Assembly (NCBI RefSeq): GCF_019649055.1 | Contig: NW_026570271.1 | Coordinates: 806,001 to 870,000 of the forward strand | Direction: 5' to 3' | DNA length: 64,000 nt | From: Paramacrobiotus metropolitanus | Lineage: Eukaryota; Tardigrada; Eutardigrada; Parachela; Macrobiotidae | Part shown: positions 22,755-62,713 of the stretch, one piece after another | How positions within the stretch are numbered: position 1 is the stretch's first letter | How the letters are laid out: each line of letters begins with the position of its first letter | The notes under the pieces: generated by a model | Seen by the model: the letters and a program-made list of their open reading frames with translations, nothing else | Database searches by the model: none | What the model was told of the DNA's origin: nothing | Program-made: the position numbers and the translations under genes

Positions 22755-25700
22755 CTATTTACTGTTACGAAAAACTTTCTTGATGTCGTGCACCAAGGCA
22801 ATGGTACGTGTGAGCATGTCCCGTCTTTCCATGGCCTGCTTAGAAAACTCCCCATACAGAGTCACGAAGATATCGGCGGATTCGTGGGAGTAATTGAGAA
22901 TAACCGGACAAGCCGTGTCCAACATCGCCTGCAGTTGCTCCTTTTCCGCTGCCGGCACCTGACCAGCCCGCTGGACCACAAGTTTCTTGAGAGCAATAGC
23001 CGCCGACATTCCGGCCAGCGACAGAACAATAGCGCGAGAGACTTCGTATTTCGGGTAAATATTTCTGCAAAAAAACTTTTTGATTAAATCCTTTAACAAG
23101 GTTTGTTCAAAGTACAAGAGATTTGCGAAACCACATTGACACACATCGAAACACATTCATACGTGCTTTAATGGCCTATTTTCGTAAATTCCGATAAATA
23201 CAGCGTTCTAATTATTCGGGAGTACTAACGGCAACACGCCAAATTTTATTAAACAGAATGAACACATGCCGAATTACCGTGCACAAACGATGAACTCCTG
23301 CATCATTTTCCAGCCCTCTTCAAAGCGATTGTCATCGTACAGCGTCCTTGGTAATCCCCAGCCGCACACGTAACGGATATGCGCATCCGGCTGCAGAATG
23401 TCGACCGCGTCCATCTCCTTGCATAGATCCATCATCATGGGCACGTGGAGTTCTTTCCGAAAGCGAATCTTCACGTTCTCATGCTGCTGCAAGAAACGAC
23501 GGAAGCGCACCAACCGTTCCTTGTTCAGCGCACCGCACTCCGAACAGGGCTGCAGAGCACGGTCGTCGCTGGGAATTCGATTCGGACAGCCCATGTTCAC
23601 GCATTTCAGTGGATTGATGTCGGCATCCTGCAACAAAAACGAAATCTTCAAACAATGATGTCAACTTAGAACAAATTCAGTACACCTTTTTACATCATTT
23701 AGCTTATACTGGTCATCTAAAATTGGTAGTTTATTTGCTTCAACGTGCATTACTAATTTTAGAATGTGTACATGTTATGTAGGTTATTTATTTATTTTTG
23801 CATTCGTTTACTCATTTCAGTTTAATAAAAATTTTTTGAATTACTGACGCGCTGAGACGAACTTCACGTACGTATTGCGGAGAGCATTTGCGGCATGTGC
23901 AGGGATATCCGTGCAGTTTTTCGAACTCCGCACGACGCTCGGCTCGTGTCATATAGAACGGTTCCGGCATGATATTGTATCTCAGCTGCAAAAGAATGCA
24001 CTTTCCATAACTGCAAAAGAACTGAGCCACTTCTGTGTTAACGTCAAGCCTAGCCAGTGAAAAGGCTACAGACGGTGGACAGTTAGTTGAAGGTTTGATG
24101 TTGCGAGAAATTTCACCGACATCTTTCTGTCCGGTGTAGTTGCTGATATCCTCCACAGCGTGTATGGTCAAACGTCGTCCTCGAAAAGTCAGCACGACAT
24201 TTGTATCCCAGCACACCGGTGTCATAAGACGAGGTGACGCGAGTGGATAAACCGCTGTACCAATGCGTGCCACACCGTTCAGCGTATCCTCGATGGGCAT
24301 AGCGTTGTAGGCGATATTCGCAGAAAAGGTGACCATGTCGGCAAGGAAAACCCCAGCTTGGGATCCGTGATCTTCGACAAGGAACTGAGAACAGACATAC
24401 ATGTATAAATATTAATTATTCAGTTTATTAGAATTCATGGGACAAAACAGATGGCACTGTATTTCGAGCAAACGAAGATGTCCGGTGTTGCCTGCCGGTG
24501 CAGTAGATGTTCTAACAATTTTGCAACACGTTGTTGGAGTACTACAGATACAATCGCGCGCCGCGGTCAGCAAGAATGAGGAACATCCCAGTAACTAGAA
24601 TAACGTATTCATAACAAACTTACAGCTGTTCTTTCTTATTAAGTCGCGCTAATTTTGGATTGGACGGCAGCATGTTCCACAGTTCCTTGGCGGTTTTGAG
24701 ACCGAACCCCGGAATATCCACCATAACGCCCAGCTGGAAGAAACAGAGCTCGTCAAGCATGGCAAAAACATGTGTTAAGCGCCACAAAGCCGAAGTCTGC
24801 CTTTGGGGAAATAGGCCCCGTACTTTCAAAGCTACAGTCGAAAATCGAGAAGATGGAGGAGAATCAAGGAACGTTTTGATACCGGCAAATAACTTTAAAT
24901 ATTTATTTTAAGATTTCTGGAAAACGTTATAACCACGGTTGTGGTGCACATCTGGCCACGCACTACTGTCATACAGTTTTTAGTGCGAGTTTCAAGAGGA
25001 TTGAACCATAATCTGAAATTTGCTCTCATAAAGTGTTCAGGCTTTTAATCTCTCAACAACCGGATATTGCGCGCACAGAGGTTTTCAAACCAACGTGTAA
25101 AACAGAAACCATATGATCATAAGGCACCTTGAATTTATTGATCAACTTGGCGATGAGATCACGAGGAACGTCCAGGCTGCTGTACTTTGTGCTGCTGCTC
25201 GAGGCCGATGGTCCGCGATCGGTCTCCAAGGAGCCATCCGACTGATTGGTTTGCTTCAGCAGGCTGCATTCCAGCTTATGCTCCCACTTCCAGTCGTCAG
25301 ACTAGTCAGTCAAAAGGCTGTCAAGTCGTAATGTCACCTACTATGATTTAATTGGTCTTCTGTTAGTGCTTTTACTGCAGCAATGCGCAGTACTTGCCTT
25401 TTCAGACAACTAAGTACTATACAGCATGATGAATGATGCAGTTCAGTGTCTGCACTTGTCCCAAAACATTCGTACAATCGTCAAAACTATTTTCTATCAG
25501 TTATTCTTTGAGAATTAAGACAGTTACTAGAGTGTTTTTCTTTTACGATAGTTTTGCGGAATGACGGAGTATGTCATTCCGCAAAACTGGTGTTTGCCCG
25601 TGACTGGATCGTAAACTAGAAAACCTTCCAAATTTTAGAGAGTCATACCTGGCAAGTCACGTTACAGTAGCGGTGCAGCTTGCATCCCGAACATGTTCGC

Positions 25701-25852
25701 AGTTCCTGACTTTCCCGCAGGCAGGAGGCACAACGCGTTTTGTAGGCACTACTCGTCAGTACCCAGATCAAAGGATCGTAGCATGCCACAAGATCGCCTG
25801 ACTTAAAAGAACGCCTGCCAGAAGCAGCCTGCGAAGTCTCAATAGTTGCCAT
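22755..25852 (-). CDS. SMYD-like SET/MYND protein, copy A (one apparent frameshift)
   Basis: Exons 25649-25852, 25128-25301, 24624-24733, 24121-24384, 23872-23985, 23278-23627, 22755-23064. Order: MYND zinc finger (CASCLRESQELRTCSGCKLHRYC...C, completed by EHKLEC in exon 2), a linker, an IPGFGLKTAKELW helix, SET core (AVYPLASPRLMTPVCWDTNVV, then FRGRRL), post-SET CTCRKC, a four-cysteine C(x4)C...CSEC module, and a helical C-terminal domain. Exon 4 is 264 bp where the family needs 265: relative to copy B one base is missing in the run at 24347-24354 (aaaacccc on the plus strand), shifting the frame before the SET core. All else is open (about 508 aa if the base is real). Closest paralogue is copy B. 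Either a young pseudogene or an uncorrected homopolymer error. Confidence 0.75.
25550..25588. repeat. Perfect 16-bp hairpin in intron 1 of SMYD copy A
   Basis: Arms 25550-25565 (agttttgcggaatgac) and 25573-25588 are exact reverse complements around a 7-nt loop. No poly-U tail or known motif, so no function is assigned. Confidence 0.75.
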
Positions 25853-26269
25853 CCCAGTTTACAATTTCGGTGACTTGCGTATACTTAACTCGAACTTAAA
25901 TATAAAATTTGATTACAAGCTAAACGAGGCAGCGAAAAGCAACAGTCGTGCCATGAACTTTGAAATTTGAGTTGCAGGCATTTCAAATTTCGACCGATTC
26001 AAAATTAATGTTTTCCACGGTGATCAGTCACGCATCAGTCGGCATCACAGGCCGCAAATCTCGACTTCTTTATGGTTGCCAAACCGCACGGAGATGGCTG
26101 GCTGTATGCAATGGCCGGTAAGCGAAGGAGGTGTGATTTTGCCATTTTGGGTATGTTTAGGTTAATTAACCCAAAAACTCTCTCGCGAAGGAGTTTCTGC
26201 ATCGAAACCATGTCGATACGGTATACGGTTGGAATACGAGACCCATTTTAAAGCCCAGTAGTGACAGTG

Positions 26270-26430
26270 TGCGACAGTGGGCAAAGCGGCATTTCGCCGA
26301 GGACAACCCGACGCAGGACTTTTGGCCGCAGAAATTTCACCGCAAGGTCATTTCGCAGCGTCGCGCTTCGTCGCGGGAGACTTAGTTGGCAGGACATCAC
26401 GCCGCGAGACATTTCGTCCCAAGGCCACGT
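26270..26430. repeat. Degenerate GC-rich minisatellite
   Basis: A run of diverged units of about 15-16 bp built on variants of gcaggacatttcgccgc (catttcgccgaggac, cgcaggactttt, catttcgcagc, ggacatcacgccgcg, gagacatttcgtcc). It is clearly GC-richer than its surroundings and lies between SMYD copy A and the GNAT gene. The rest of 25853-27668 holds no recognisable gene. Confidence 0.5.
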
Positions 26431-27668
26431 CGATGAAAAGTTATTCCTTTAACAGATAAATTTTTTAGGAAATCACTATAGCCACCCCTTTTCACCCCCG
26501 TTTTTTCATATTGGCCAGTCGGTTGCATTCCGTAGGTACGTCGGAGAGTGCATTACATGGAAAAATGATGGAATTAAGTAATTCGTGACACTGGTAGTCA
26601 TTAGTCAATGCTTCCCGCAAACACAATGGCGGACGATTTCCGATTACGCTGTGACGACTGCATCGCTAATTATGGCTGCATAAATAAATGGTAAAATTAC
26701 AAACTAAATTTATCCTAACGTACGAGTATCAAAGCAAATCAAACAGTTTTGTTCGCTTCGTAACAACAATAAGGATAGAACAACCACTACTTTTTTAAGT
26801 CAACCTGGTCGAAATTATCAGATATCATCACAACGCTTTTCTTGTTCTTATGATCTTATCGAACGTTTTGAGTCTTAAGTGGCCATGGCAGGACACCGTT
26901 GACGTTTTCCCCGCTGGGAAGGTCATAAATAACAGACGCTTATGAATTTCGCTGCCATCGGTGACGTATAAAATTTACATAAACCTCAGATCCCTGAAAA
27001 TGGGAAATGAAATGGGTGTCTGTACCTAATAATCGCAAATACTTCGTTCTTATTTAACTAATTGTGAAAAAGGTGCCTGTAATTAACGGGATGCAAAAGG
27101 GGGTGGGTGTGGCCATTGCAGTTAAGTGCTGCTTTGTAGTCCCACAGTAGCGATGTGTTTTGTTATTAATTGGTGATAATTGGTTTTTCGATTTTGGCAA
27201 ATGCCCTGTGCTAGCAAAAACGGCTTTTATCGATTTTGTTAGCATTGCATTGCACTGCATTGCTAAGAAAGCCGTCTTAATAGTAGCAGTGGTGCGTAAA
27301 CGCCGGTTATAAAGAGTATTAAAGACTGCATGAAAGCCAATAATGCCAAGAAGAATTCGTGAAGTATTAGTATGTAGATATCTTTATCTGCGGCCAACCT
27401 AGACTGATAAACTGTGACAAGTTGGTTGATTTTTAGTATGTAGAACGATACCCCTATTGTGCGGATCTAGCGGAATTTGAAATGATACGTGATAGTGTGA
27501 TACTAGTATTATTTATGCGTGGCTATGTTAACGGTACGATAAGCAAGTGAGCGCAGCTCATAATAATGTGTTGTACGCTGGGAATCCAAGAAATGTCTAA
27601 ATAAAAATTAATGTGCATTTTTTGAATATTTTGGTTATAATTTGAAGCCGTTAGAATACAGAAACGCA

Positions 27669-28586
27669 ATGTCGGAAACGACGAAATCGACGCAGTCTGA
27701 TCTACTGAATGTGCAGTGCTGCAATACGGACAACCTTCGCAGCCGGCTCAATGCAGCGCTGGAGAAGATGGCCGAGGAGAACAACATCGCCGCTACGTAT
27801 GATCATGTCACATTCACCGGTTTAATCGATCCCGATTCTAACTTTGCCGGACTGATCAACGATGAAATTGTCACAACGATATCGGCATGCAATTACGACG
27901 ACCGGTTTTCTTTTATTGGCAGCTTCTTAACCCTTAAAGCATACCAACGACAAGGGTGTGGACGGAAAATATTCGAAGCATGCCTGGAACACGCCGGTGA
28001 TCGAGTAATCGGGATGTATTCCGTAGAACACATGGTGGACTGGTATAAAGCCTACGGATTCGAGCAGACGACCACCACTAACACATATCGTCTGTATCCT
28101 GGAAAGAAGCCGGCAGTGCTCGGTCATCAGGACGATGCCCATATTGCTGCGGTTTCGGAGGTTGATTTTGATGACCTTTGCCACTTCGACCGCAAGTATT
28201 TCCCGGCGGAGCGCCGAGCCTTCTTAAAAGCTTGGCTTAATCATCCGAAAATCACGTCTGCTTTGGCTTATGTCGAAGACGGTAAAATCCTGGGTTATGG
28301 AGCGATCCGGAAATGCGTCGGCGATAAGGTTTGCAAAGTTGGACCCTTACTTGCTGACAGCTTTGACGTGGCGGAACGGTTGGGAAGAGCGCTGTTGTAT
28401 GGACTGCCGGACGGAATCGAGCTGGTACAATACGAACGTATAACTGCTAACGTACAGGCTGGAGTGTTAGCGGAAAAGTTGGGATTCGACGCTACACCGT
28501 TCGGAGGTGCTGTGATGTACAAAAATGGCCGCCCGGATTTTGATGTTAGCGGTGTGTATTCGTACACCTCCGGGGCATACGGCTAA
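27669..28586 (+). CDS. GNAT acetyltransferase with two GNAT-like domains
   Basis: Single-exon frame of 305 aa starting at ATG 27669 (MSETTKSTQS); the frame is open a little upstream but without an earlier ATG. The N-terminal half is a Gcn5-type N-acetyltransferase fold: the acetyl-CoA loop RQGCGR lies around residues 94-99, followed by IFEACLEHAGDR and the beta-5 region. The C-terminal half has the layout of the YitH/HolE-type second domain (LGYGAIRKCVG, KVGPLLADSFDVAERLGRAL, then LAEKLGFDATP and a final VMYKNGRP). Acetyl-CoA-dependent transfer is expected by family; the substrate is unknown and a cytosolic site is likely (no signal peptide or membrane segment). A possible AATAAA signal lies at 28777-28782. 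It is divergent from SMYD copy A and convergent with copy B; a relic of the same gene lies at 63126-63262. Confidence 0.9.
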   Translation: MSETTKSTQSDLLNVQCCNTDNLRSRLNAALEKMAEENNIAATYDHVTFTGLIDPDSNFAGLINDEIVTTISACNYDDRFSFIGSFLTLKAYQRQGCGRKIFEACLEHAGDRVIGMYSVEHMVDWYKAYGFEQTTTTNTYRLYPGKKPAVLGHQDDAHIAAVSEVDFDDLCHFDRKYFPAERRAFLKAWLNHPKITSALAYVEDGKILGYGAIRKCVGDKVCKVGPLLADSFDVAERLGRALLYGLPDGIELVQYERITANVQAGVLAEKLGFDATPFGGAVMYKNGRPDFDVSGVYSYTSGAYG

Positions 28587-29130
28587 TCTTATCAAAATAA
28601 TTCAGCGTTGTCTACTAAGAACGGAATATTGTAATACTGATCGTCACTGTTCAGCCACGACCACAGTTATAGTCGCCAAGAACGTAATCACCAATATTTC
28701 ATGGTATCAAGGAAGTGGTAGTACGAGTAATTGTATCGTACTTATTTGCTGGAGGAATTCACGGAGTAAATGCAGTAATAAACCGATATTCGCATTTTGC
28801 TTGTTGTTTGACCATGAAAATTTTTATTAGGTAACAGTTAAGCGTATATAAAAAACAGGACTACCTTCCTTAACAACCGGTAAGCTAAAACGTTGCTGAA
28901 GATAAGCAGTCGATTAATCCGCTTCCCAACTTCTGCCGTAGATGACGAATTGTTCATCCCATAAAATATAGCAGTTCAATTAAAGCCTAATCGAATAAAA
29001 TAATGAAGATTCCCGCTCAGAAACTTTTGTATTATTTCATGCACAAGCAAGCACCCAGCAAAATATGCAGACGTCAAAAGACAAGAACAAACCATCTAAC
29101 CGACAACAAATTAAATTGCACGCTTTCACG
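28587..29130. other. Convergent 3' flank, nothing recognised
   Basis: 544 bp between the GNAT stop (plus) and the SMYD copy B stop (minus); probably the 3' UTRs of both. No further element seen. Confidence 0.4.
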
Positions 29131-33218: not shown

Positions 33219-33285
33219 AGATCGGAGAATGTTGGTTTACTGATCGGAGAATGTTGATTTAAGAATCGGATCGGAGAATGACTTT
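33219..33285 (+). repeat. Short tandem repeat, gatcggagaatg
   Basis: Three spaced copies of gatcggagaatg within about 65 bp between SMYD copies B and C. The rest of 32384-33542 shows no gene. Confidence 0.6.
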
Positions 33286-41098: not shown

Positions 41099-44000
41099 TC
41101 ATAATTCAAATTTATTTTGACCAACTCTCGCGAAAATCTGCTCGATTTGACCAAAAAGTGCAGCCACTCCTTCCAGTACAGTATCGGCTTTCTGAACCTC
41201 CTTCGACTTGTCACCAAACAAAACAACAACGATTTCTTTGGCCCCTTGACAGTAACGGAGGACCGGACAACTTATGTGAGCAGTTAATGCTTCCAGTTCC
41301 TTTTTCGTCGGTCGCTGTCCCTCCGTTTCTATTTTCCCCGGTCGCGGTCCTCCCAATCCCAGTTCTGCTTCCAATAGCTGATCAACCCAATTCATCACTC
41401 GTCTGTGCAGCGCTATAGAGGAAGACGTTGCCTGGTCCGTTAGTTGAAGATAGCGAAAAAGATCATATTTTGGATACATCCTCCTAAATGAATTTTCTTG
41501 TTATTATTACTGACACTAGCATACACACGCTGCCCTGCATATCGCGCAGTGTGTATGCAAATTTCCGTACACCACCACACCGTAAATTTCCACTCTGTAA
41601 CCCACCTTCTAAGCGCCGCTAGAGTAACTGATAATAAACTATGTAACTCTCTAACAAAATCTTGTATAATTTCTAGTATGAATGTTGCAGTCATCTTATG
41701 TTAGACTATAGATTGTAAACGGGAGGCCGCTTGCAGTGTGGTGCATCCAGTGCGTTTTGTGCTTGCAAGCAGTAAAAAGTTACTACAAACGCTACAAGTG
41801 ACTCTTTCCCGTACATAAACCCCTTCGTCTATAGTGTATGAAACGGCTACAATATGTGCGTAAAACCTGCGCTGTAAATGGGTAAATCACCGATAAACGA
41901 TGTTGTTTTTGCTATTGTTACTGAAAACCAGCAGAATCGATTTGAACCGTTTACCGAACAGAGATAGTCAACTTCTCCATCATCTTCCAGCCATCTTCTA
42001 AACGGTTTTCCTTGAAATACTTGCGCGGTAAAATCCAGCCGCAGACGAAGCGGAAATGCGCATCTGTCTGCAGGATGCCCGCCATATCCAGTTCCTGGAC
42101 GAGATTCGTGACGCAGTCTATCCACGTATTGGGATTCCTATTGCAGCACCACTTCAAACCCTCGTACTTCTGCACCAAACCCCGGAATTGAGCCAATCGT
42201 TCACCGTTGAGGGCACCGCATTCCGAGCAGGCTGTCAGTGCTCGGCTGTCGCTCGGAATCCGATTGGTGCATCCGCTGGTCACACATTGTAACGGATTGA
42301 TGTCAGCATCCTAAAAACGTTCGGAAATGCAAAATATCGTTTAACGTTTTCAAACCAGGGATTAAAGGTTAGTACATATTCTTCCGTGCAGCTGCGGCAA
42401 GGACACGGGTAACCGTAACGCTTCTGAAATTCATCGCTACGTTCCGTTCTTGTTTGGCGAGATGGCTCCAGGAGTTCGCAATATCGGAACTGCAAGCAAT
42501 GTGACAATTTTGAAACGATCGTCGCTTACACAATTCGTGAAATTTGCGATGGAAACGAATATTCGCGACCGTTATCGGCAGGAAACCATGAAGAAATAAT
42601 GGCGAACTAACGAAAAAGGCAAGTACATTCATGATACATGTACTGTGCTTTTTGTAAAAAGCCCACCTAGAAACGGGCGACCCGATCCATATCTGCGGCG
42701 GCAAAAACATTTTTATGACTGATAAATACTATGTCGCTTAAACTGCACAGTGCAGAATACAGTAAATAATTTCTTCCTAGCGGCAAAGTTACGGTTAACT
42801 AATAGTCTCGCGTGGTTTTCCATCAGCACACACGTTTGACTTTCTAGGTTTCTCGGGTCGGTCGTTTCTAGATGGCTTTCCATATTAAGTGCAGTATTAG
42901 GCAAGCAGCACCACGTCGAACAATCAGCGGCGATTTGTGCGAGAGTTCAACAAGATGCAGTGGTTTACACTTTACAGTACTTACATCCTGCAGTCCGGTA
43001 AAACGCGGAATATCTTGCACGGCATGTAGCACTAACTGTCGGCTGCGGCAGTTGGCCACAACATTGACATCCCAGCATACTGGCGTCATTTTGCGCCGCG
43101 ACGCTTGTGGATACAAAGCGAAACCGATCGGGGCTTTGGTGCTGCCGGTCATCGCATTGTACACAGGCCACGCGTTGTAACTGATAATACCGTAGTAGAG
43201 CAGCGTGTCTTTGCGGGGTATCATATTTTCCGGCCAGATAGACGTACTTTGAAAAGAGCGAAAAATTTATTAAGAATCCGCACAAAAATACCTTTTTTGT
43301 GCTTACTCTGAGTTTAACTGCATAATGCTCTCGATTTCCCGTTGCGCGGGATTTGTGGGCAGCATGAGCAGAAGTTCTCTGGCACATTTCGGACCTATCC
43401 CGGGGATATCTATTACCACGTTCCTCTGGAAAAAGTATATTTTCAATAAGAAAAAGTCCAACATCTTTCTTTGCAATAAAGAAATTTAGCAAAGTTTTAA
43501 TAACGTCAAACGTTTACAGATGGAATATCTATTATAGTTGCTGCGCCACGGAACTCTTTAGTATGCTGTTACAGCACTAATGTGAATCCTGTAGCGGAGT
43601 ACGAGTAACTGTACAGTATGATGTAAGTCCTTACTTTCGTATAAAAAACTTTCAACACCGCATTAACTGCTAATAATAACACAATAAAGTAAAATACAAA
43701 ATTAATGATACGATCGAAGAATGACAAGCATAGAACGATGCTAAAGGTTCATTGTTGTGCATTCAGGAATCACGATTAGTACTGGAAGTCTGGTATCTAC
43801 AGACTGTACCGTATTATGCGGTAATTAAATTATTGATTGCGCTTTCTTTTCATTGGTACTACGCTTACCTGAAGTTTGAAATCCAACTTGCACATCATAT
43901 CGGTAAAGGCGCCTTTAGTCATGGTAAAGGTGTTCGATTTAATTCTACCCAAAGGTCCGCTAACCATCGTCATGGGGGCGACGTCTTCGTCCCTACCGAT

Positions 44001-44484
44001 AATCTCTCTCAACGCTGCGCATTCCAGCTTATGCTCCATCTTCCAGTCGGCGACCTGCATCATACCAGTCACTCAACAAGTGCTTCAACGGAAGTTCTAA
44101 TGTGAAAGCATAGATTCTACGTGAAATATCGATATTAAGAGGTGGTGATAGCGGCTTCTTACAGTAGTAAAACTGGCGCTAAGCTCTCTGGTGGGTTCTC
44201 CATAACCAGTCAATCATTATGAACCGAAATATTACCAAATAATAAACGATTGCTTATCGTTTATAACGTTTTTCTTATCATACCTGACAAGTGGCGTTAC
44301 AGTAGTGATGCACCTGACATCCCGAGCATTTGCGCAGTGCCTGGTTATCATGGAAGCAATAAGCGCAGTGTGTTTTGTATGCGGCGCGCTCGAGGACCCA
44401 CACCAGCGGACTACATGACATTATGATGTCGCCAGGAGAAAACAAACGGCTGCCGACGCTTAAAACGGGCTCCTGGATCTCCAT
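41099..44484 (-). CDS. SMYD-like SET/MYND protein, copy E, intact, longest
   Basis: Exons 44284-44484, 43869-44054, 43307-43425, 42985-43246, 42376-42489, 41955-42310, 41099-41483; total 1623 bp, 540 aa, phases all closing. MYND: CAYCFHDNQALRKCSGCQVHHYC plus EHKLEC. Exon 3 carries DIPGIGPKCARELLLMLP. SET core: ALYPQASRRKMTPVCWDVNVV. Post-SET CPCRSC. Cysteine module CVTSGC...CSEC. The C-terminal helical domain has about 20 extra residues rich in Gly, Pro and Lys (LGGPRPGKIETEGQRPTKKE) in the loop before the LTAHISCPVLRY helix. Sister to copy D. Its start codon is 222 bp from the copia insertion, so the promoter region may be affected. Confidence 0.88.
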
Positions 44485-44711: not shown

Positions 44712-44929
44712 TGATACAATTAAGGTGGTTTTGGTAGTTTGCTTTAATGAAGAGTAATTCCAAGTGTCGTTAACATTGTAATTGTAGCTTCTTATATACT
44801 CAGTAAAACAGTCAGATTGACTAAACTTCTGAGTAACAACTTCGCCTTTAAGGCCGGTGTATGACAAAGGGGCTGGGTGCCAACATGAGTAACAGACATT
44901 AGTAACGGTTACACTCATTTATTCTAACA
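44712..44929 (-). repeat. 3' LTR
   Basis: 218 bp. In the minus sense starts tgttagaataaatgagtg (containing AATAAA) and ends tgtatca; same as the LTR at 48943-49160. The RNase H frame stops inside it at 44924-44926. Confidence 0.95.
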
Positions 44930-46827
44930 CCCCCCTTCACCCAGTCCGCGGTCATTCAGTCCATGCATCCCGAGCAGTCCGGTGATGGATTTGACCTTGA
45001 TCCCTCCGAGCGCCTTCGTCAGCATGTCCGATGGATTTTGATCCGTTGGAATATAGCTCACCTCGATCGATCCGGCTTTCGTTTCCTGGCGGATTCGGTG
45101 GTAGCGAATTCCGACATGCTTGGTCCGCTTATGGAATTCGGGATCCTTCGACAAGGCAATCGCGCCTTGATTATCCACATACATCTGGGTGGCCTTTGTC
45201 ATGTCCACTCCGAGCGCATCCAGAAACGGTCTGCTCCACTCGTTCTGCTTAACTGCCTCGGCCAGTGCCATGTATTCGGCTTCCGTCGCAGAGAACGCTG
45301 TCACTTTTGCAGCTGGGAACTCCAGGCAACAGGTCCGCCTCCCAGGGTGAATACATATCCGGAGGTTGATTTCCGCTCATCCGGATCACCTCCCCAATCC
45401 GAGTCACAATATCCGGTCAACTCCATACTTGCTGTACCAAACGTCAAAGCCATAGTTAATGTGCCTTTTAAATAGCGCATTACCCGTTTAACAGCTGTCC
45501 AGTGGTTGAATCCCGGTTTCTTCCCAAACGACGCCAGGCGGTTCACTGCGTAAGTGATATCCGGTCGTGATATGGAAGAGATGTAGATGAGGCAGCCAAT
45601 CGCTTCCATGTATGGACAGCTATATGGCTCTTCTCCATCCTCAGATTTCATCAGCTTGACATTCGGATCCAGAGGAGACGTATAGGTTTTACTCTCCTGT
45701 AGTCCAAATCGCTGCAGCATGCGATTGATGTATCCCTGCTGGTTGATGCTGATGGTGCCGATCTTCCTGTTCCGACCGATCTCCATGCCCACATAACAGT
45801 CTGGCTCATGAACCGTCAGTTCGAAATCTTCTTTAAGTTTCTTCAGGAAATCATCCACCACTTTTCGCGTCGCACCACATACCAGCCCATCATCAACATA
45901 CAGACACAGTACCATGTACTCCTTACTCGTACCTTTCTTCACGTAGACGCACGGATCTTCACTGCATGCAACAAATCCATGTCCAGTTAGTACTGCGTTC
46001 ACTCGCTCGTTCCACAATCTTGGACTTTGCTTCAAGCCATATATTGAACGCTTCAACCGGCATACACGTCCACTACCGTCGTCGTACGTTGCCGGCTGGT
46101 CCATATATATGACTTTATCCAAGTCACCATTCAGAAATGCAGTCTTCACGTCAAACTGCACCATTTCCAGGTTGCGTGCAGCAGCCACCGCTAACACACA
46201 GCGCACCGATTCGTGTCGTACGACGGGGGCAAAGGTTTCGCCATAGTCGATGCCTTGCGCTTGTGAGTAGCCGCATGCCACAAGCCGCGCTTTCCGCTTA
46301 TCCAGCTCGCCATCTGGAAGTAGTTTCGATTTAAAAACCCACTTACACTTCACAGTGCGCCGGTCTGCTGGTAGCTGTTCCAAAGTCCAAGTGCCCGTTT
46401 TATACAGCGCTTCAATTTCAGCATCCATTGCTTCCTTCCACAGGTGCCCGTCTGCTCTCGACAGCGCATCCTGAACATCAACTGGATCTGCGGCCGTGGC
46501 CATTGCGCTCAACGCAGCTCCCTTGGCTCTGGTTTCCATGGGATGCGGAAGAGGCGGATCCTTCACCAGATTCTTTGATCCCGGTGGTCGCCCTGGCCGT
46601 CGCTTCTCAACTGCTGCATTTTCTACAGCAGTCTCGCTTCCCAGCTCATCCTCCGCATCTTCCCACTCTTCGTCATCATCCCGCTCGCTCTCATCCCCTT
46701 TGAGGCAGGATACCGTAGAGCAACTTCGGGAATCTCGTCGCCACCATCCGCGACAACCACATCTCCAACCCGTTCCACCTTTTTCGTTTCCCGGTTGAAC
46801 ACCCGGAACACTTTCGTGGTATCCCAA
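44924..46827 (-). pseudogene. copia pol, reverse transcriptase and RNase H part
   Basis: Open frame 46827 to 45301 carries an acidic spacer, then RT: KCKWVFKSKLL, FDVKTAFLNGDLDKVIYMDQP, the catalytic YVDD in LYVDDGLV, and the RNase H start TGYCDSDWGGDPDERKSTSG. The frame breaks at 45301-45310 beside a four-A run. The next frame (45304 to 44924) has ATEAEYMAL, YVDNQGAIAL and HKRTKHVGIRYH, the rest of RNase H. Copy-DNA synthesis and RNA degradation are the family roles. The break makes the unit non-functional as read, unless it is a sequencing error. Confidence 0.93.
44930..44944 (-). other. Polypurine tract
   Basis: In the minus sense gtgaagggggg directly abuts the 3' LTR. Matches the expected plus-strand DNA priming site. 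Confidence 0.8.
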
Positions 46828-48061
46828 TCGTAACCTACAAACAGTGTTTTTACCGACTTGGGATCCAGCTTCCGTCTCTGATCCTCCGGAACTTTCACGT
46901 AGGCAGTTGATCCGAACACCCGCAGGTGGTCAACTGTTGGCTTTCGGCGGTGCCACAATTCATACGGGGTAATTTCCAGCTTTCCCCGATTTGGCACAAT
47001 GTTCCGTAGGTAGGCAGCGGTTGAGATGGCTTCATTCCACAGAAGATTTTTCTCACTTTTTGTGATGTCCGCATCGTAGAGCAGCGTTCGCGCACTGTCA
47101 CAGAGCGTGCGGTTTTCCCGTTCTGCCATGCCGTTTGCTTGCTTCACGTACGCCGGACTTCTTTCGTGCTTTATCCCTCTGTTCTGAAACAGCGTTTCAA
47201 CCTCCTGGTTGATGTATTCAGTCCCGTTGTCCGTGCGAATCGACAACACCTTTCTACCAGTTTCCCTTTCTGCTGTGATAATCAACTCTTTGAATGCATT
47301 ACCCACAGAGTGCTTACTTGGTAGTGTTCGAACCATTCTGTATCCGCTGCTTTCATCTTTGAACGTCAAGAGATATCGATGTCCTTCCCAGGAGTCTGCG
47401 CCCATATGACACACATCACTATGGAACCTCTCACCTGATAGACATTCCCTTCCAGCACTGCTGTCATGGGTGTTAGCCGTTTGCTTTCCCATATGACACG
47501 CTTCACAGTCACCGCGCTTCGAGGTCACCACCTCCAGGCCGTCCACCACCTTGTTGCGGACCATGGAGTCAACCAATGCGTCGCTGACGTGTCCAAGTCG
47601 TTGGTGCCAAATTCCCACAGGCTGCGCCTTCAGCGCACCTCCGCTTGGCGGCACCACGCGTATGAAAGGTTGGTACGTTGTACCGTCACCTCGCACTCCA
47701 CCCAGGAACGGCTTGCCATCTCTGCTGATTGTCATCTTGCCTTTAGCGTGGGAAAATGCGAATCCTTCTCGCTCCAAGGTCACCGTGGACAGCAGCGTAG
47801 TGTCACATGCATCGGGTGCGTAGAAGACATTCTTCCAATCCACTTCCCGCCACTGTTTCCATCGACGGACACTTCGACGTCAATCGTGCCAATATGGGTA
47901 GCCTTGATGCTCTGATTGTTGCCAACCACGAACGATTTGGGAACATCTAGCTTAACTAGAGTTTTAAACCAGTTGTATTTATTCGTGATATGGTCACTTG
48001 CCCCACTATCGGCGATGATCACATCCTCACTTCCGGTCGCATGCATGGCTGATACCATCAT
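46623..48061 (-). pseudogene. copia pol, aspartic protease and integrase part
   Basis: The frame from 48061 holds the protease active site DSGASDHIT. After a shift at about 47838-47850 the frame 47843 to 46623 holds the integrase: the HHCC zinc site (HQRLGH...CEACHMGK), the DDE catalytic core (FHSDVCHMGAD, SIRTDNGTEY, AERENRTL) and the C-terminal FVGYDWDTTKVFRVFN. A second shift at about 46695-46705 (aaagggg) leads into the RT frame. Roles: polyprotein cleavage and insertion of the cDNA. Confidence 0.92.
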
Positions 48062-48869
48062 CGATTCCTTCTTGTAACCGTGACCGGACTTGTCCTGTCG
48101 CTTGTTGGTGACTGTTTCCCCTTTTGGCTTTGACCAGCAATCGGCCTCTTTATGGCCCGCTTTGCCGCAGTTGTGGCAGCTTCCGGTGAACTTCTTCTTC
48201 GCTCCAGTTGGTAGTCGCTTACCTTTTGCGTACAGCGACTCACCGGCTGGACTGGACCACTTCCTTCTCCTGTCCCTTCATCATCTTTTCCGCTAGAGCA
48301 GCTTCTCCCGGAACTTGGACATCTCAGGATTAGGACCGGCCATCATGTTCCACGACGACACAAATGACGCGTACTGTTTGGGCAAGCTGGCCAGCGTCTT
48401 ACCGATCAACCAGGTGTCGGTAACCTTTTCCGGCTTCCCGCACGCGTCTATCTTCGCCGCTAGAACATACAATGATGCCATGAATGTATTTGCGTCGTCT
48501 ACCTCCTTCCACTTGACTTCGAAAAAATTCGGTCATCGCCGACATCAAGTCGTTGTCAGTCTTCGGCTCTTTCAGCTCCTGGATCCTCTTCAGAATCTCA
48601 GCGGACGTCTTGCAGTCCCGACACTGACTGAAGGTGGTATCATCCACTGTTGCGCGCAAAATACTTCTGGCTTTTCCATCGGCAGCTATCCACTTCAGGT
48701 GGTGCTCATGCGCCGCTTTATCCGTTGCCGAATCTAAGGGCATCGTCAGTGTCCCATTCACAACAGACCACAAGGACTCACCAGTCAACACATCCTCCAC
48801 CTGTACCCTCCATCGCGAGTAATTGGAGTCGTTTAACTCGGTGACCTTAATACTCTTCAACTGCGCCAT
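48062..48869 (-). pseudogene. copia gag
   Basis: Starts at ATG 48869 (MAQLKSIKVTELNDSNYSRW), the UBN2/retrotran-gag type capsid. The frame breaks at about 48521-48530 (a six-A run on the plus strand), continues as MASLYVLAAKIDACGKPEKV, and breaks again around 48285-48300. The zinc knuckle CHNCGKAGHKEADC (CX2CX4HX4C) at about 48135-48180 is in the same frame as the protease. Role: capsid formation and RNA packaging. Confidence 0.88.
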
Positions 48870-48920
48870 TGTATTATCCACAACACAATGATAAAACAAA
48901 CTTCACACAAACACTGCTTA

Positions 48921-48942
48921 GAGACAAGCAGGTCTCATAATC
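48921..48942 (-). other. Primer-binding site, tRNA-Met-like
   Basis: Directly after the 5' LTR the minus strand reads gattatgagacctgc. The first 11-12 nt equal the complement of the anticodon arm of elongator tRNA-Met (from general knowledge of that tRNA), as in copia-type elements primed by a 5' half-tRNA. Confidence 0.6.
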
Positions 48943-49160
48943 TGATACAATTAAGGTGGTTTTGGTAGTTTGCTTTAATGAAGAGTAATTCCAAGTGTCG
49001 TTAACATTGTAATTGTAGCTTCTTATATACTCAGTAAAACAGTCAGATTGACTAAACTTCTGAGTAACAACTTCGCCTTTAAGGCCGGTGTATGACAAAG
49101 GGGCTGGGTGCCAACATGAGTAACAGACATTAGTAACGGTTACACTCATTTATTCTAACA
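48943..49160 (-). repeat. 5' LTR
   Basis: 218 bp, same sequence as 44712-44929; holds the promoter of the element by family rule. Confidence 0.95.
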
Positions 49161-50248: not shown

Positions 50249-51612
50249 GCGGCTGACTGGAAGATGGAGCACAAAATGGAATGCTCGGTGCTGAAGAAGG
50301 TGAATAGCACAAGTGAGAATAATTTGGAGAATACGGTGGTGGGGGAGCTGACGCAGACATCAGGCAGCTCTCTCTTTGTCGTCTCTGGTCTGATAACAAA
50401 ACTGACCAATAAAATTGAGGTAATACACCGGTCTTTGATTAGGACTTTGATTGCTATTGCTATTGCTCTTCAGAAGAATGCAGTGAGGGGCATCCCTGGG
50501 ATGGGGCAGAGATTTGTCAAAGATCTACTGCACACGCTGCCGGCAAATCCTTTGCAACCGGAATTGGAACAAATGACACAAGAAGAGTAAGTTTTCTAAT
50601 TTAGCTTAGCTGGAAATCAAAGCAGTAAGAAAATCTTCGGCAAGGAGAATAATTTAGTATAGAGCTTCAACCTGGATATGATACAGTTCCATCGTTTCCT
50701 CCACCTGTACCAGGCCATTAAGAGTAGCTGCCCGGAAGGATATCACTCAGTCGAGATCCTGCAGCTCTCCAGAGGCTTAGACGCTGCCGGCATTATGCAG
50801 CCGGATGCACATTTTAGATACATCTGCGGGAGGGAGTTATCGGTGCGATACTACAGGGAGGGCCGTTTCAAAGATGGCTGGAAAATGATGAAGGAGTTTG
50901 TAGCCTGTGTCCGGTAAATCAGACAGCTGCAGATCTAGGAATATGATTTCATTTATTGCACCGAGCGCTGCGAGATTTACAGCAAGATTGCTGTACGATG
51001 ATATTGATGGGCAAATATTCACCTGTAGACACTAAACGTGTAGTGTAACATAGTACCAGTTTCCAAATGCAATGCTTTTTCCCAGTGGTATTGAACACAA
51101 GCTCGATGCAAAGGATGTGGTTTTTTACCTATCGCTAGTTGAAAATGATTGAATTTAATAACAGTTACCGGATATTTTGCAGTCGCCGTTCAAATGATTG
51201 ACAGTCATTGATTGTACACGTTTTTAGGAAAGTTTGCCCTATCTATGCACATTTTCGCGCCCATCTGTTGGTAACCATTGCGTGGTCTACCACAGAGGCA
51301 CTGGAAAAGCGTGTACCGAATGATATTAGTGAGCTTCCGGAACCGGCGAAGCAACAGCTGAAATCCCTGGTTACTGAAGTACGCTGCCTGATTCTGGAAT
51401 GTGCTCAAGAAACGAAGAACACATTTCTTGTACTGTTTGGTGAGGAATCACAAGAAGTCCGGATAAACGATGCTGCGATGGAGCGGGTGGCTTCAGCATT
51501 AAACCGTGTGAGCACTGAGCAGTCATTTCATAGGAGAAAGTTGAGAACGTTTTGGATTGGTTTAATTAAGTGTTTGCGGATTTTGTTCTTAAATGCGAAT
51601 TCGCGTTGGTAG
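50249..51612 (+). pseudogene. SMYD-like relic F, inverted, internally deleted
   Basis: Plus-strand remnants of exon 2 (50249-50419: AADWKMEHKMECSVLKK ... TKLTNKIE), exon 3 (50474-50586: GIPGMGQRFVKDLLHTLPAN), the right part of exon 6 (about 50669-50913: LDAAGIMQPDAHFRYICG ... EFVACVR) and exon 7 (from 51228: KVCPIYAHFRAHLLV), with splice sites preserved. Exon 1, exon 4 (SET core), exon 5 (post-SET) and the start of exon 6 are missing; only 82 bp separate the end of exon 3 from the exon 6 remnant. The retained exons are open, so the deletion and inversion may be fairly recent. No SET catalytic centre or first half of the MYND finger could be made. Closest to copies C, G and H. Confidence 0.85.
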
Positions 51613-56210: not shown

Positions 56211-57047
56211 TTTCACTGGGATCGCCCGCACGAACGAAAACTGTAGGAAATAAATACTCAGTGTTTGAAAATCAGAATCTAGGTGCGATGATTTCAAGGA
56301 AGATTTGCGAAATTATACTGGCTACAACAGCATCGACAGAACTGCGATCAGGCGTTGAATCATATCCATTGCACTGAGCCGTTAGCATCCGGATCAGAAA
56401 TGCGCACTTGCGCAGCGTGCGAAATGCTCATGCTGCATGCTCTGGTACGTACTACGTACACTGTACTGCACATAGTACACACTAGTACTACAATGTCATA
56501 CTGTACTACATAAAATTTAGTACGTACATACTGCAGTCGCATTACACAATAATTATGTAATAAAATAATTATTATTTTTAGCGTATTGGTCGCTAAATAA
56601 AAGACGCTGCTAGGTCGCTGCTTGATGAATCACGCTTGACGAAATTGTACAGACTGTAAGAAAGTACCTCACTGTAACTAATGCTGTAGTCTGTATGACT
56701 ATGATGTATGCTCATCCCTTATCCTCTGTTTCCCTATTACTGCACGCGCCAGTGCGTTCCAAAAAAGACGTGGCGAATCTTGTCTGGCCTTTATGGAAAT
56801 CAATACCATTCTCGAGTACCGCAGCTGTTGGATTCTCCCAGTTCGTTGACAGAGAGTACTGGATGGACATGGGCAACCAGTATTTCCTCCAGTAGCGGTT
56901 AGTCTCTGGGGTGGATATAGAACACGCCCGGAATCCGTACTATCTGAACATTTTCTCTTCACCTGGTTGCAGTGGCCGCATCGGTTCTACGTATGCACCT
57001 GAGATCTGAGAAGTGAGAACTGACCAACCCAACCAACCGACCAACAC
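56211..57047. other. Intergenic, nothing recognised
   Basis: 5' flank of copy G; includes a patch rich in tacgtac/agtactgta motifs near 56.44-56.54 kb. No gene seen. Confidence 0.4.
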
Positions 57048-57560
57048 CTGCGCGCCCACCTGCTGGTAACCACTGCGTTGTCTACCGCGGAAGCTCTGGA
57101 AAAGCGAATTCCGATGACGTCAGTGAGCTGACAGCACCCGAAGCAAAAGCTGGAAGCATTGGCAACAGAATTGTGCTGCCTCATTTTGGATTGTGCTGAA
57201 GAAGCGAAGAGCACTTTCATTGTATTGTTTGGTAAGGAGACGCTAGAAGCCTAGATAAACGATGCTATGATGGAGCGGGTCACTTCATAATTAAACCGTA
57301 TTAAACTGTATCATAATTAAACCGCTGCGGGTGGCTTCCTAATTAAACCGTATTAAGCAGAAGTTTCACGCCAGAAAATAAGGAAGTTTTGGGTTTGTTT
57401 AATTATGTGTTTGCTGATATTGCCTGTTGAATCCGACGTTGCGCTTGTAGTTTTAGAAACCGCAAAAATAGCTCACCTGCAAGATTGTTGAGTGTTCTTT
57501 GCTACCTTTTGTTAATCCACCGGCAACCGAGCGGTCTGAATGAGCATCCGTGAGCCTACC
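57048..57560 (+). pseudogene. SMYD-like relic I, exon 7 fragment
   Basis: Aligns along its length with relic F from about 51250 to 51720: gcgcccacctgctggtaacc, then accgcggaagctctggaaaa, the LPEPAKQ-type region (reading cagcacccgaagcaaaagc) and downstream non-coding DNA (cttttgttaat). In-frame stops and small indels are present, and the cttcataattaaaccgtatt stretch is locally repeated. No other exon is nearby. A decayed partial copy in the same orientation as F. Confidence 0.75.
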
Positions 57561-58865
57561 AGAACAGGTTCCATTTGATTACTTATTTGAAACAGGACTT
57601 TGATTATCCCAAATTGCAGGCTTTTACTGTACCTCGTTTTCTTCAAACATTCTTACAGAATGCCCGAATCTTATGCCTTGGTATTAGCAAGTATTTAAGT
57701 AACAATGATACGACAATGAATAAAATGAAGTCAAAAAATTGTGAGGATGCATGAGGAATACTCAAGGGATACGGCGGGACACTGCCAGCACAGTAAGCAC
57801 TAGCAAAAAAATGTCTCGAAAAATTTAACGTGCATTGATAACTCAACGAGGGAATGCCGCATATCTGCAAGTAGGTACATTAAATAATCTGTGTTAAACA
57901 AATTCGTCTAACGTACGAATTATTTCTCGTAGCCTATAACACGCAATAGCATCACTGGTAACATCAGTAATTTCGAACCGCAAAAACGGAGACTGTGTAA
58001 GCTTACCGCTGCACCAAACTCCCATTTCGTCTGCATAAAAACCCACATTCTACTTAATTACTGAAGTCATAAAGGTAAGACAAAAACCATCGTATTATAA
58101 TACGACCAAACTTATTTTGTTATGTAATATTTCTCGATTTAATGTTTAAAAAATCTGCTGTAGCTGCTAACTAAACCAATAAATATTCCTCACATTTCCG
58201 TGTACCAGAATCGGTGGTGCAATCTCACCGCGCGGCTACAGTATACTTTGAATACGAATTTGAAGAAGAAATCTCGCCACGCACTACTTTCCAATAAAAA
58301 AATTTAAACAAACAGAATAAGTAGCATGCCGCTCAAACGCCCTGGATTGAATTAATATGCAGTTGTATGACCTCTTCCGTAATGAAAACACAGAGAAAAA
58401 TTTGCGTAACGAGACAGCCCACCAGTTTCTGGAGATTGACCCTTCCTCATCTTCGCACTGCGCTCATGACGGCCTGCGATTGTGTGAAGGGAATTGTTCT
58501 ACACGTGCTTTCTAATGCACTTCCGTGATTGTTCTAGCATTTCCGTTCCGCTAATTTTTTCTAACTGTACAAGATTCTAATGAGTAAAAGCTCGCTGACC
58601 AGTTCTGCGTTTCAGTTCTGGTGATCGGTTTTATAGAAAATTTTCAAACGGCTATTTGGGAAGATTGTAGATTGGGATGGTGACGTTTTTGCGGCGGCAA
58701 AGGTAAAGTCTAAAAAGGTAAAAGGTAAAACAGAAAGACAAAGGGGAACTTTGCGGACCCTTATTATAACCTGTACTTAAGAAATCATTTGTTTGAAATC
58801 GGTGTACTGTGTACAGATACACACTGCACAATACGGTACAAGGAAGACTACTGCGGTAGCTGGGT
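57561..58865. other. Gene-free stretch
   Basis: About 1.3 kb, AT-rich; no supported gene, repeat or RNA. Confidence 0.45.
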
Positions 58866-58902
58866 GTGCAATAAACACTACCTTGGGTAGTGTTTATTGC
58901 AC
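58866..58902. repeat. Perfect 17-bp palindrome
   Basis: Arms 58866-58882 (gtgcaataaacactacc) and 58886-58902 are exact reverse complements with a 3-nt spacer. It lies 3' of SMYD copy H, with no gene around it. Confidence 0.8.
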
Positions 58903-59545
58903 TTAAAAACGAATATTTGTTGAAATCCCATTCCATCCACGCACGAATTAAACATACTTCATAAACTCCATCTTATTATGGTGACAAGATTAACGCTAAA
59001 TGGGTTAAAATGTTCCGGGGAAAATTAGTAAAAGTTTAAAAATTATCAATAGTTTTGCAAATCCACCGCAGACAACATCATATACGAGTATTTTTTTAAA
59101 CCCAAAAAAACATTGGCTGACTGAATTAAAAAAAAACGGAACACAGTAAAAGAAAAAAAAATGCTTGCATTACTTGTTGTCGCGAAAAGCCTGTTCAATG
59201 CAGAATATCATGGAGACCACAGCCTTCACCGCCGTATCATTTATCTGGGCTTCCTTGGACCGCTGATCGTACAATGCCCCAATAATATTGTTGGATTCGT
59301 GGACATATCCCAAAATGAGACTGGACACTTGAGCAACTAGTGTCTGCAGCTCTTGCTTCGCCGGTCTCGTCAGCTTACCAGTTGCATTCAGGACGTGCTG
59401 TTCCACCGCCTGGGCGGTAGACCTCCCAGCGTACATCAGTACAGTAGCACGAGACGTTGCAAACATCGGACAAATGTTCCTGAAGGCCATAAGTAATTAC
59501 ACAATTTATACCGTACTCACTACGATAACCATTGCAAGTAAAAGA

Positions 59546-59609
59546 TAAACGTTATAAAGCAGACATGAGTAACTACGATAAACGTTATAAAGCCGATACG
59601 AGTAACTAC
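59546..59609 (+). repeat. Short tandem duplication in intron 6 of copy H
   Basis: gataaacgttataaagc(a/c)ga followed by (c/t)a(t/c)gagtaactac occurs twice in tandem (unit about 33 bp). Confidence 0.6.
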
Positions 59610-62337
59610 CGAATTTACCGGGCACAGGTGACAAACTCCTTCATCATAGTCCAGCCGTCTTTGAAGCGACCTTCATTGTAATACTTTTGAGCTAATTTCC
59701 AGCCACAGACAGATCGGAAATGCGCATCCGGCTGCAGGATACCGGCAGCGTCCAACTCCTTGCAAAGCTGCATAATCATGTCCGTGTGCAACTCGCTGGG
59801 ACAGCTTTTCTTTATCATCTCGTGCTGCTGCATGAATCGGCGCAACTGCGTCAACCTTGCACTGTTGATGGCACCGCATTCCGAGCAGGCTGCAAGTGCG
59901 CGGCTATCGCTCGGAATTCGATTGGAGCATCCTACCGTCACACACTGTAGTGGATTGACGTCCGCATCCTTGCAATATAAATCAAGGTTTAGCGGTAGCT
60001 TCTAGCACGATTATTTTGATAACATACATATGCTTCCGAGCATTTCCGACAAGTGCAAGGACGCCAATGACGCTCCTCGAATTCAGCGCGCCGTTCAACT
60101 CTTGTCAGACCGAACGGTTCCACCATATGGCTGTAGCGCAGCTGAAAGAGATACTTCGATATGGCCATCATTTTGTACAATTGCACTGTGGGGATCAAAA
60201 TAACTCGGCCAAATTAACAGCTGCTCTTGCAGGCTACTACTTTAAAAAACTGGTAAAAAAACTACTACTTTAAAAAAATGCCGACCATTGTACAGTACAA
60301 TCTGCATTATGAACAGAAAAACTGAGATAGAATTAAAAACGGAGATGTCAGCTGCTTTTACTTTTTTGCCGTATTGAGATTTGAATAAATATTTGTAGGA
60401 GTTGGAAGATTTACATAAATAGCCATCCAGCATACAGCGATTCACACATTATCACTCGCGTAACTTGGCCGAAAATGCCAGGCAGTCAGAAAACTTTGAA
60501 ATGTTAATTTTGCGCATATTCACCTACATCACAAGTGCAATCAACTCCCAACCGCTTAGCCAAGATTAGTTTTACTAGACTCATAATATTATTACGTATT
60601 CGGCACTTCGTGTAGGCGTGGGCAACTTACATCTGCAATGCCGGTAAACTGCGGAATACCCTCCACGGTACGTATAAACAGCCTCCGTCCGCGGCGCAAC
60701 AGCACCACATTGATATCCCAGCACACCGGCGTCATCCCTCCCAACGGTGCTTGTGGATATACGGCTACGCCGATTGGTGTACTGGGCTTGCGTATATCGT
60801 AGATTTCCACAGCGTTATAAGAGAGACATTTACAGTAAGCAATGAATTCCACAGAAGTCATATTGGCTGCCCTGCGATTTCCCGACTCCATGGAGGACTG
60901 TCTGCGAAACAGCAACCAATAAGAAGTTGAAACGGAACCATTACTTGATAATGTCCGGTCGGGTTCACAACCCACATGCAGATTTACCGCCCTTGCCGAA
61001 GATTGAGCTACATGCTCTGTTGTTATTTGCTGTATGCCCGTAACTTACTCTTCTTGCGTCATTTTGGGATTTTTCGGCAACATGAACAGAAGGTCTTTAA
61101 CAGATTTCGAACCCATTTCCGGGATGTCCATCACCGCTTTCTTCTAGAGTACCATGAGAAGATTACAATCGGTGAGATGACACTGGTAATACGACTGTCG
61201 ACTGAAGGAAATTTTGTTAAGATTGTACTTCGGTTTTCCTCATATTTCGGTCACTTTCATTATACAGTTGCATATTTCAGTCACGAGAAAACAAAATTTC
61301 CTAGCAAAACAAAATTCATGGAAATGATTAGTTTTCATAAAAACGATTTCTATCATTAAATCTTACACTCAAACATCAAATAAACTTTTTGAAAAACAAA
61401 GCAAATAACACAAGTGTAATATCTTAGGTCTAGTATTTTATTAGAAGTATTACCGTTTTGTAATAGTGCAAAGAGTCAACTGAAATACATTCAACGTTGT
61501 AACCGAGGCTTAACATGTCCGGTTGCTGCCAGGTCACAACAATAACAGCAATTAACCAAGCCGCAAGTCTGACAGCCTGTATTTTTTTAATAGGGGCAAG
61601 TAAAAACACACTATTGCGCAGTTAGTTTTACTTCCGGCAAAACTAATTTTGCTAATCATTATCGCAGTGTCGCGAAAAGCTACATTTCATTAGGTCTTTC
61701 TCTCTGTCATGACAATCACCTTCGAAACAATAAGACTTCCGTTACAAGGAAAACGACTTGTCTATCGAATCGGGTAAAGATACGAAACATCATAGAGAAA
61801 ACTAAACCGGGTGCTGGTGGCATGGTGCCAAATGGGTCATCTCGCAGGGCCTCATGGTATGAATGTTAGTGAAGGGTGCGAGGCGACTTCACATCCTGAC
61901 CCGGATCCGTCTTCTGATAAAACCGGTTGCTTACCTCAAGTTTATTGATCAACTTTTTAGTGAGATCATGGACGACGAAGGCGGCCTTAACGCGTGTGGG
62001 GAAGCTGTCCGCTGTTCCGGAACCCGCCGTTATGCCCGCCGCTGCCGCAACTGTTTCCATGCTTTCCGTCTTCTTAAGCGTCGCGCATTCTAGTTTGTGT
62101 TCCATTTTCCAGTCAGCGACCTGACACCAATGAAACATGCGATAAACAGCGCGTTTAACGCGGCTTGGAAACGGCAATGGGGATGCTCCTAAATTTTATG
62201 GTCTTGCACCTACAGATCTGTATCGCTGCCTTTCACTGAGCTTTGCAGGATAACAGTTCAGACACGTAGCCACCGTACCTGGCAAACAAAACTGCAATAG
62301 CGATGCAACTGGCATCCCGAACATGTGCGTAACCCCG

Positions 62338-62458
62338 TGGATGAGTTGGGAAGGACCAGATATTGTCCTAAGTATGGTATAAAGTACATTCGCTGAACAA
62401 AATTAATGGACGAAGGCGATTAGGTTGACCGTAACGACGATTGCAGAATTTAACCATG
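62338..62458 (+). repeat. 121-bp direct repeat, copy 1, inside the MYND exon of SMYD copy H
   Basis: Matches 62714-62834 at 119 of 121 positions by eye (starts tggatgagttgggaaggacc, ends near gcagaatttaacc). The other SMYD copies have no sequence at this point of exon 1, so it is an insertion there. No terminal inverted repeats seen. Confidence 0.85.
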
Positions 62459-62713
62459 TGCTCGGCTGGAAACAGTAGGCACAGTACGTTTTGTAGGCGC
62501 TCCTCTCCAGTGCCCAAACCATCGGATCACAGGACATCACAAGCTCGCCAGCTGATAAACAACGCCCACCAGCGCTCGGCACAACCTCCATTGTCTCTAT
62601 TTTCAGCGGAATGGTCAAAACAAATATGATACTCTATGCAAGTAGTGGGGAAAACACTGATGATATTCAAAGTGGTTCGCAAAATTTCAAAATTTTAGTT
62701 TTCAATAGCTTAC

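Follow-up and report, generated by a model that had tools for sequence, protein, structure and literature searches.

The window analysed here (64,000 nucleotides of the tardigrade Paramacrobiotus metropolitanus, contig NW_026570271.1, positions 806,001 to 870,000) carries seven SMYD-like genes, C1 to C7, arranged head-to-tail on the minus strand from 62591 to 22755. We find that these genes probably represent a lineage-specific family of SMYD-derived pseudo-methyltransferases, in which the protein frame serves as a zinc-stapled scaffold without S-adenosylmethionine (SAM). A preliminary description of this DNA had reported the sequence MTPVCWD in every copy, at the place where active SMYD enzymes carry NHSC, and an all-frame search of the window indeed returns seven such sites, all on the minus strand, with MTPVCWD-x-NVV as the consensus common to the seven genes. 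Each gene consists of seven exons and six GT-AG introns, the intron phases being 0,0,2,0,0,2 in the five copies whose frame is intact. Exons 1, 2, 4, 5, 6 and 7 were matched in all seven copies by tblastn with the C2 exons as query, and the boundaries of exon 3, whose product resembles NAMMDIPGMGxKSVxDLL, were taken from splice sites and phases. The same description counted seven full-length copies; five of them (C2 to C6) have no internal stop, but C1 is disrupted by an insertion in exon 1 and C7 by a frameshift.

The family is spread over the genome. When one exon 4 is searched against the genome (533 contigs, 169,799,020 bases), at least 99 matches on 24 contigs are obtained, and exon 6 gives at least 127 matches; both counts are lower bounds, although some exon-6 matches are fragments of one exon and at least two exon-4 rows overlap at one place (contig C51, 873 kb). 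A chance occurrence of the motif is ruled out by the 99 genome matches. On contig C51, to which the window belongs, 16 rows lie across 830-924 kb, including the seven window copies. For the alignments we fetched 95 of the 99 exon-4 places (the others being three window copies and one overlapping row) and added three loci from other hits, giving 98 loci; residue counts refer to the 94 rows left when a duplicate locus and rows shorter than 40 residues were dropped, and these rows include near-identical copies from contigs C51 and C59 and are not independent. A tree built from exon 4, plus exon 5 at the loci where it was found, has 88 rows over 116 columns, with good support for 46 of 84 inner branches, and MTPVC is present in both of its halves (the root is a midpoint root, for drawing only); the class labels on this tree were assigned by regular expression, and L005 and L087 are labelled wrongly. 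Positions 41411-62837 of the window are collinear with contig C59:540900-560899, with an identity of 78-94% in pieces up to 53163 and of 99.1% over the next 9.7 kb, and this duplicate block may be a haplotype or a segmental duplication with conversion.

To place the motif in the SMYD frame, we compared profiles of the family with the sequences in the PDB. The profile built from the five spliced models finds SMYD2, SMYD3 and SMYD1 (E 1.6e-16 to 9.3e-11), the match running through the GELV strand and the MYND finger, and a second stretch, weak alone (8.2 bits), sets MTPVCWDINVV on MNHSCC-PNVIV. Exons 4 and 5 could be joined at 63 of the 98 loci, and with one duplicate and short rows dropped the resulting 49-member profile aligns with residues 172-270 of SMYD2 and scores 22.8 bits (E 6.5e-4, scaled to 177,635 PDB sequences), the best of 2000 shuffled controls reaching 7.1 bits. 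This alignment sets MTPVC-WDxN on SMYD2 MNHSC-CPN, with one inserted residue needed between the Cys and the Asn, and places the motif at the SET active-site position, as had been proposed. The same profile does not recognise (-0.9 bits) the corresponding exon of a gene on contig C26 (L101) that has GNGLFA and NHSCQPN adjoining a MYND finger and that we take to be SMYD5. Retention of the MYND finger is confirmed by PF01753 (zf-MYND), which scores above its cut-off in all four models tested of the five intact ones; PF00856 (SET) has no match at E up to 1 in the four proteins tested.

In SMYD2, as far as the accessible text of PMC3125274 goes, the structural zinc ligands are Cys209 (of NHSC), Cys262, Cys264 and Cys267, the amino group of the cofactor is held by Asn206 together with the carbonyls of Lys17 and Arg19, and the adenine is held by the His207 backbone; a conflicting account, in the available part of PMC4696779, has His207 chelating the zinc. 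Of the 94 rows, 92 have C at the Cys209 position, and all 57 rows that extend to the three post-SET cysteines (CxCx2C) have C at each of them, in agreement with the earlier claim that the post-SET cysteines are kept. The Asn206 position is N in no row (T in 71), the His207 position is H in no row (P in 72), and the Ser208 position is V in 87. The Asp after the motif Cys is held in 92 rows and the Asn of PN in 90, and the W position is W, S or L in 68, 12 and 10 rows, respectively. The near-invariant unit genome-wide is C-x-D-x-N and not MTPVCW as a whole, so that conservation of MTPVCW(D) as one unit applies to the window copies, with T, P and W varying elsewhere. Because the motif Cys corresponds to a zinc ligand in SMYD2, the motif is best read as a zinc ligand kept with the SAM ligands gone, that is, as a zinc staple that appears to persist where the cofactor site has apparently been lost. 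No normal NHSC equivalent is hidden in these exons: a whole-genome scan for NHSxxPN gives 78 matches (one for the reversed pattern), none of them in any listed family exon 4. Most (62) fall in one repeat array on contig C19, and 12 of the remaining 16 lie inside PF00856 matches, the SMYD5-like gene among them; two occur on contigs that also carry family members (C86:38063 and C124:211364), each within a strong PF00856 match. The array (C19:692538-757682), with a spacing of about 490 bp and these 62 matches to the DNA pattern, has no PF00856 match listed at E 0.01 and may or may not be derived from a SET exon. A second, separate group of SET-domain clusters lies on contigs C12, C17, C73 and C448, the PF00856 matches there (E about 3e-5 to 0.01) falling in single open frames.

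The N-terminal GxG strand, which contributes to cofactor binding in SMYD enzymes, had been described as absent from all seven copies. The ATG of C3, C4 and C7 is preceded by an in-frame stop at a distance of 0, 6 and 2 codons, respectively, and there is no AG between stop and ATG; splicing therefore cannot attach a coding exon from farther upstream in frame, and in these three copies the strand is provably missing. In C1, C2, C5 and C6 there are 14-74 open codons 5' of the ATG, with AGs present, and no GxG is seen in this open frame, so that absence is likely, not proven, for these copies. An upstream coding exon supplying the strand is ruled out for the first three copies and not for the other four. 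The profile match starts only at the SMYD2 strand FQVGDLLFSC, and the family proteins begin a few residues before it. Two members elsewhere in the genome, L098 and L102, have the same kind of start, and in a third, L096, the frame is open farther upstream but contains no GxG there. Acceptor-like pyrimidine tracts ending in CAG are found about 33-36 bases before the ATG of C2 and C5, and are compatible with a 5' untranslated-region intron or with trans-splicing.

We show that the genes are under purifying selection. The ratio of non-synonymous to synonymous substitution rates (dN/dS, NG86 method) is 0.18-0.37 in all 21 window pairs, calculated with partial last exons for C1 (34 codons) and C7 (model cut), without exon 1 of C1, and with the first codons of C7 exon 4, which precede the frameshift, read out of frame, an error that can only raise dN. 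Pooled over the five closer pairs, with the same partial models of C1 and C7, the ratio is 0.28 for exon 2, 0.43 for exon 3, 0.35 for exon 4 (SET), 0.16 for exon 5 (post-SET), 0.17 for exon 6 (four-Cys) and 0.52 for exon 7 (last), and it is 0.25 for exon 1, from three pairs only. Constraint is strongest in the post-SET and four-Cys exons and weakest in the last exon, the pattern that a fixed frame with a variable tail would give. Similar values are obtained for C1, C2 and C3 against their counterparts on contig C59 [dN/dS 0.28-0.31, from 2, 18 and 48 differences, with 24 of the 128 codons of exon 7 used for C3]. Across the ten motif codons the 21 pairs show no non-synonymous difference (504 sites) and 41 synonymous differences (126 sites), counts that are not independent because pairs share copies; pN/pS in the rest of exon 4 is 0.56. 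Among the 94 loci the motif amino acids are encoded by several synonymous codons, which argues against a single converted tract. Selection on the motif, and not neutral change, is in line with what the preliminary description had suggested.

Each protein retains the MYND finger, the C-terminal half of SET, the SET and post-SET cysteines that correspond to zinc ligands in SMYD2, a further four-Cys module and a C-terminal region predicted to be helical, and lacks parts that bind SAM, namely the Asn-His pair of the NHSC motif and, provably or probably according to the copy, the first GxG strand. We propose that the result is a folded, zinc-stapled scaffold. Its MYND finger and open SET cleft could bind partner peptides but leave them unmethylated, and the last exon, which evolves faster, may change the partner or the context copy by copy. 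We infer that the proteins neither bind SAM nor have methyltransferase activity and that zinc occupies the cysteines; the role as a peptide-binding scaffold is our guess. A broader and more tentative proposal is that, in the tardigrade lineage, a SMYD enzyme may have given rise to a large and diversifying set of about 100 zinc-stapled binding proteins without catalytic activity, in which the former cofactor pocket now accepts a ligand or peptide and is kept as T-P-V-C-x-D-x-N.

Several observations limit, or weigh against, the interpretation of the family as folded scaffolds that lack SAM. The AlphaFold model of the C7 SET/post-SET region (contiguous, with an in-frame intron-derived insert) has a predicted local distance difference test (pLDDT) score of 50.7, and Foldseek places SMYD2 first for this model at a non-significant level (E 0.43, TM up to 0.22). 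Exon 6 alone is predicted as four helices with a low pLDDT of 65.3, and dS is near saturation in many of the window pairs (0.87-2.3). Among the residues, N is found at the Asn182 position in 70 of 94 rows, Y or F stands at the Phe260 position in 33 of the 57 rows that extend so far, and an LRY-type tyrosine occurs in 35 of 49 full exon-5 rows; since these are partly retained, residual binding of SAM or of another ligand is possible. In other structural comparisons, VIA-align 2 gives one row with Z of 2 or more among 298 chains aligned, which is not a SMYD, Foldseek with the exon 6 model lists tetratricopeptide repeat (TPR) proteins and SMYD2 among its rows, none at an E of 1 or below, and exon 6 has nothing below E 0.29 among the PDB sequences.

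The genes could instead encode paralogues with a dominant-negative or competitor effect, directed specifically at active SMYD or HSP90 partners, as regulators of methylation and not as general scaffolds. The presumed SMYD5 gene lies in the same genome. The SMYD frame is kept, and in the available part of PMC4307310 the MYND finger and the TPR-like C-terminal domain of SMYD proteins are reported to bind partners. About 100 copies seem many for one regulatory task, however, and we consider this explanation unlikely. Less likely still is a family of enzymes that bind SAM differently, use another cofactor or chemistry, or receive the first strand from a partner subunit. The partly retained Asn182, Phe260 and LRY positions and the strongly held motif of the window copies agree with an enzyme, but Asn206 and His207 are gone in every row, the GxG strand is missing, and across the genome the motif is variable at T and P. 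The LRY region, described earlier as kept, is kept in part, the tyrosine being replaced by F, H or another residue in 14 of the 49 rows, and its alignment with Tyr240 is ambiguous, the residue count placing the Tyr240 column on L (64 of 94). It is very improbable that the family is a relic in decay, made of pseudogenes or near-pseudogenes that share the motif through inheritance and gene conversion: the broken C1 and C7, the window's remnant copy and orphan exon, and the near-identical part of the duplicate block fit such a history, but five of seven copies are intact with splice sites kept, dN/dS is low in every pair, the motif amino acids are constant while their codons vary, and stops occur in only 4 of 99 exon-4 and 10 of 127 exon-6 matches. 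A pseudogene reading is rejected for the family and is true of single copies, which qualifies the earlier statement that there is no decay.

The coordinates of the seven genes, their motifs and two remnants are given in Table 1. Exon 1 of C1 is 313 bp long (189-204 bp in the other copies), and the DNA that interrupts it includes one of the two copies of a 124-bp repeat (at 62338-62461 and 62714-62837, 98% alike). The 1-bp frameshift of C7 adjoins a GGGG-TTTT run and is possibly a sequencing or assembly error, because the assembly is probably nanopore-based with Illumina polishing, as described in the accessible text of PMC8277472. Exons 4 and 5 were not found in the remnant copy; both are present in the collinear part of contig C59.

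Table 1. Positions in the window of the SMYD-like genes, the MTPVCWD motifs and the remnants
Feature	Position	Strand	Exons or method
C1, exon 1 disrupted by inserted DNA	59170..62591	-	62591-62279, 62120-61935, 61143-61049, 60901-60631, 60141-60028, 59968-59619, 59479-59170
C2, intact, 516 aa	53337..56210	-	56210-56010, 55874-55683, 54939-54827, 54767-54497, 54301-54188, 54120-53771, 53646-53337
C3, intact, 540 aa, in-frame stop immediately 5' of ATG	41099..44484	-	44484-44284, 44054-43869, 43425-43307, 43246-42985, 42489-42376, 42310-41955, 41483-41099
C4, intact, 513 aa	37118..39986	-	39986-39786, 39366-39178, 38922-38810, 38750-38507, 38262-38149, 38083-37728, 37442-37118
C5, intact, 509 aa	33543..35897	-	35897-35709, 35513-35349, 35093-34981, 34878-34635, 34540-34427, 34343-33994, 33897-33543
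C6, intact, 501 aa	29131..32383	-	32383-32189, 31868-31707, 31457-31348, 31176-30912, 30814-30701, 30224-29875, 29440-29131
C7, exon 4 frameshifted by 1 bp	22755..25852	-	25852-25649, 25301-25128, 24733-24624, 24384-24121, 23985-23872, 23627-23278, 23064-22755
MTPVCWD of C1	60715..60735	-	motif search
MTPVCWD of C2	54581..54601	-	motif search
MTPVCWD of C3	43069..43089	-	motif search
MTPVCWD of C4	38591..38611	-	motif search
MTPVCWD of C5	34719..34739	-	motif search
MTPVCWD of C6	30996..31016	-	motif search
MTPVCWD of C7	24205..24225	-	motif search
Remnant copy: exon 2, part of exon 6, exon 7	50249..51510	+	tblastn
Orphan exon 7 remnant	57033..57281	+	tblastn

The window has a GC content of 43.3%, and Rfam and tRNA scans of it gave no match. 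No match to cuticle collagen (PF01484) or to arthropod cuticle (PF00379) was obtained either, in searches that prove nothing alone since no control gave a signal. A Ty1/copia-type long terminal repeat (LTR) retrotransposon occupies 44712-49160. Its 218-bp LTRs are identical, it has a target duplication of 5 bp, and the collinear block on contig C59 has an empty site, so that the insertion looks very recent. Between C6 and C7, on the opposite strand, an open reading frame (27612-28586, plus strand) has two GNAT matches (Acetyltransf_1 and Acetyltransf_18). Two related open reading frames at 6331-7044 and 17663-18349 are hydrophobic, with no Pfam match at E 0.01, and probably encode membrane proteins.

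In the literature searched, which leaves most subscription-journal papers outside it, we found no paper that treats SMYD and tardigrades together and no report of a SMYD family without the cofactor site. The accessible portions of two P. metropolitanus papers contain no mention of SMYD (genome paper, PMC8277472) and none of SMYD or MYND in the main text (transcriptome paper, PMC11191345). The family separates structural from catalytic constraint in the SMYD frame and offers a natural set for asking which role a SET cleft has in the absence of SAM. Caution is also called for in annotating such genes as histone methyltransferases, as Pfam detects the MYND finger only.

Compared with SMYD1-3, with SMYD2 as the reference, the tardigrade family shares the MYND finger, the preceding GELV strand, the C-terminal half of SET, the Cys of NHSC, the post-SET CxCx2C and the order of these parts. 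It differs in the missing GxG strand and NHS, the one-residue insertion in C-W-D-x-N, an extra four-Cys exon and a copy number of about 100. Four-Cys ribbons also follow the post-SET region in some SMYD4 or SmydA proteins. The SMYD5-like gene of the same genome likewise combines SET with MYND but, unlike the family, has GNGLFA and NHSCQPN. The closest parallel in evolutionary pattern that we can name is SmydA, which the available text of PMC5459927 and PMC4521844 describes as an arthropod-specific, expanded SMYD class, highly divergent in its core according to the latter; both cases are lineage-specific expansions of diverged SMYD genes under purifying selection. SmydA belongs to arthropods and not to tardigrades, and SmydA-2 is reported, in the accessible part of PMC5459927, to retain methyltransferase activity, so that the tardigrade family is set apart from SmydA by the description of the latter and not by its sequence. 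Arthropod SMYD expansions have been described as added epigenetic enzymes, whereas here some 100 genes have kept the zinc cysteines and appear to have dropped the cofactor site.

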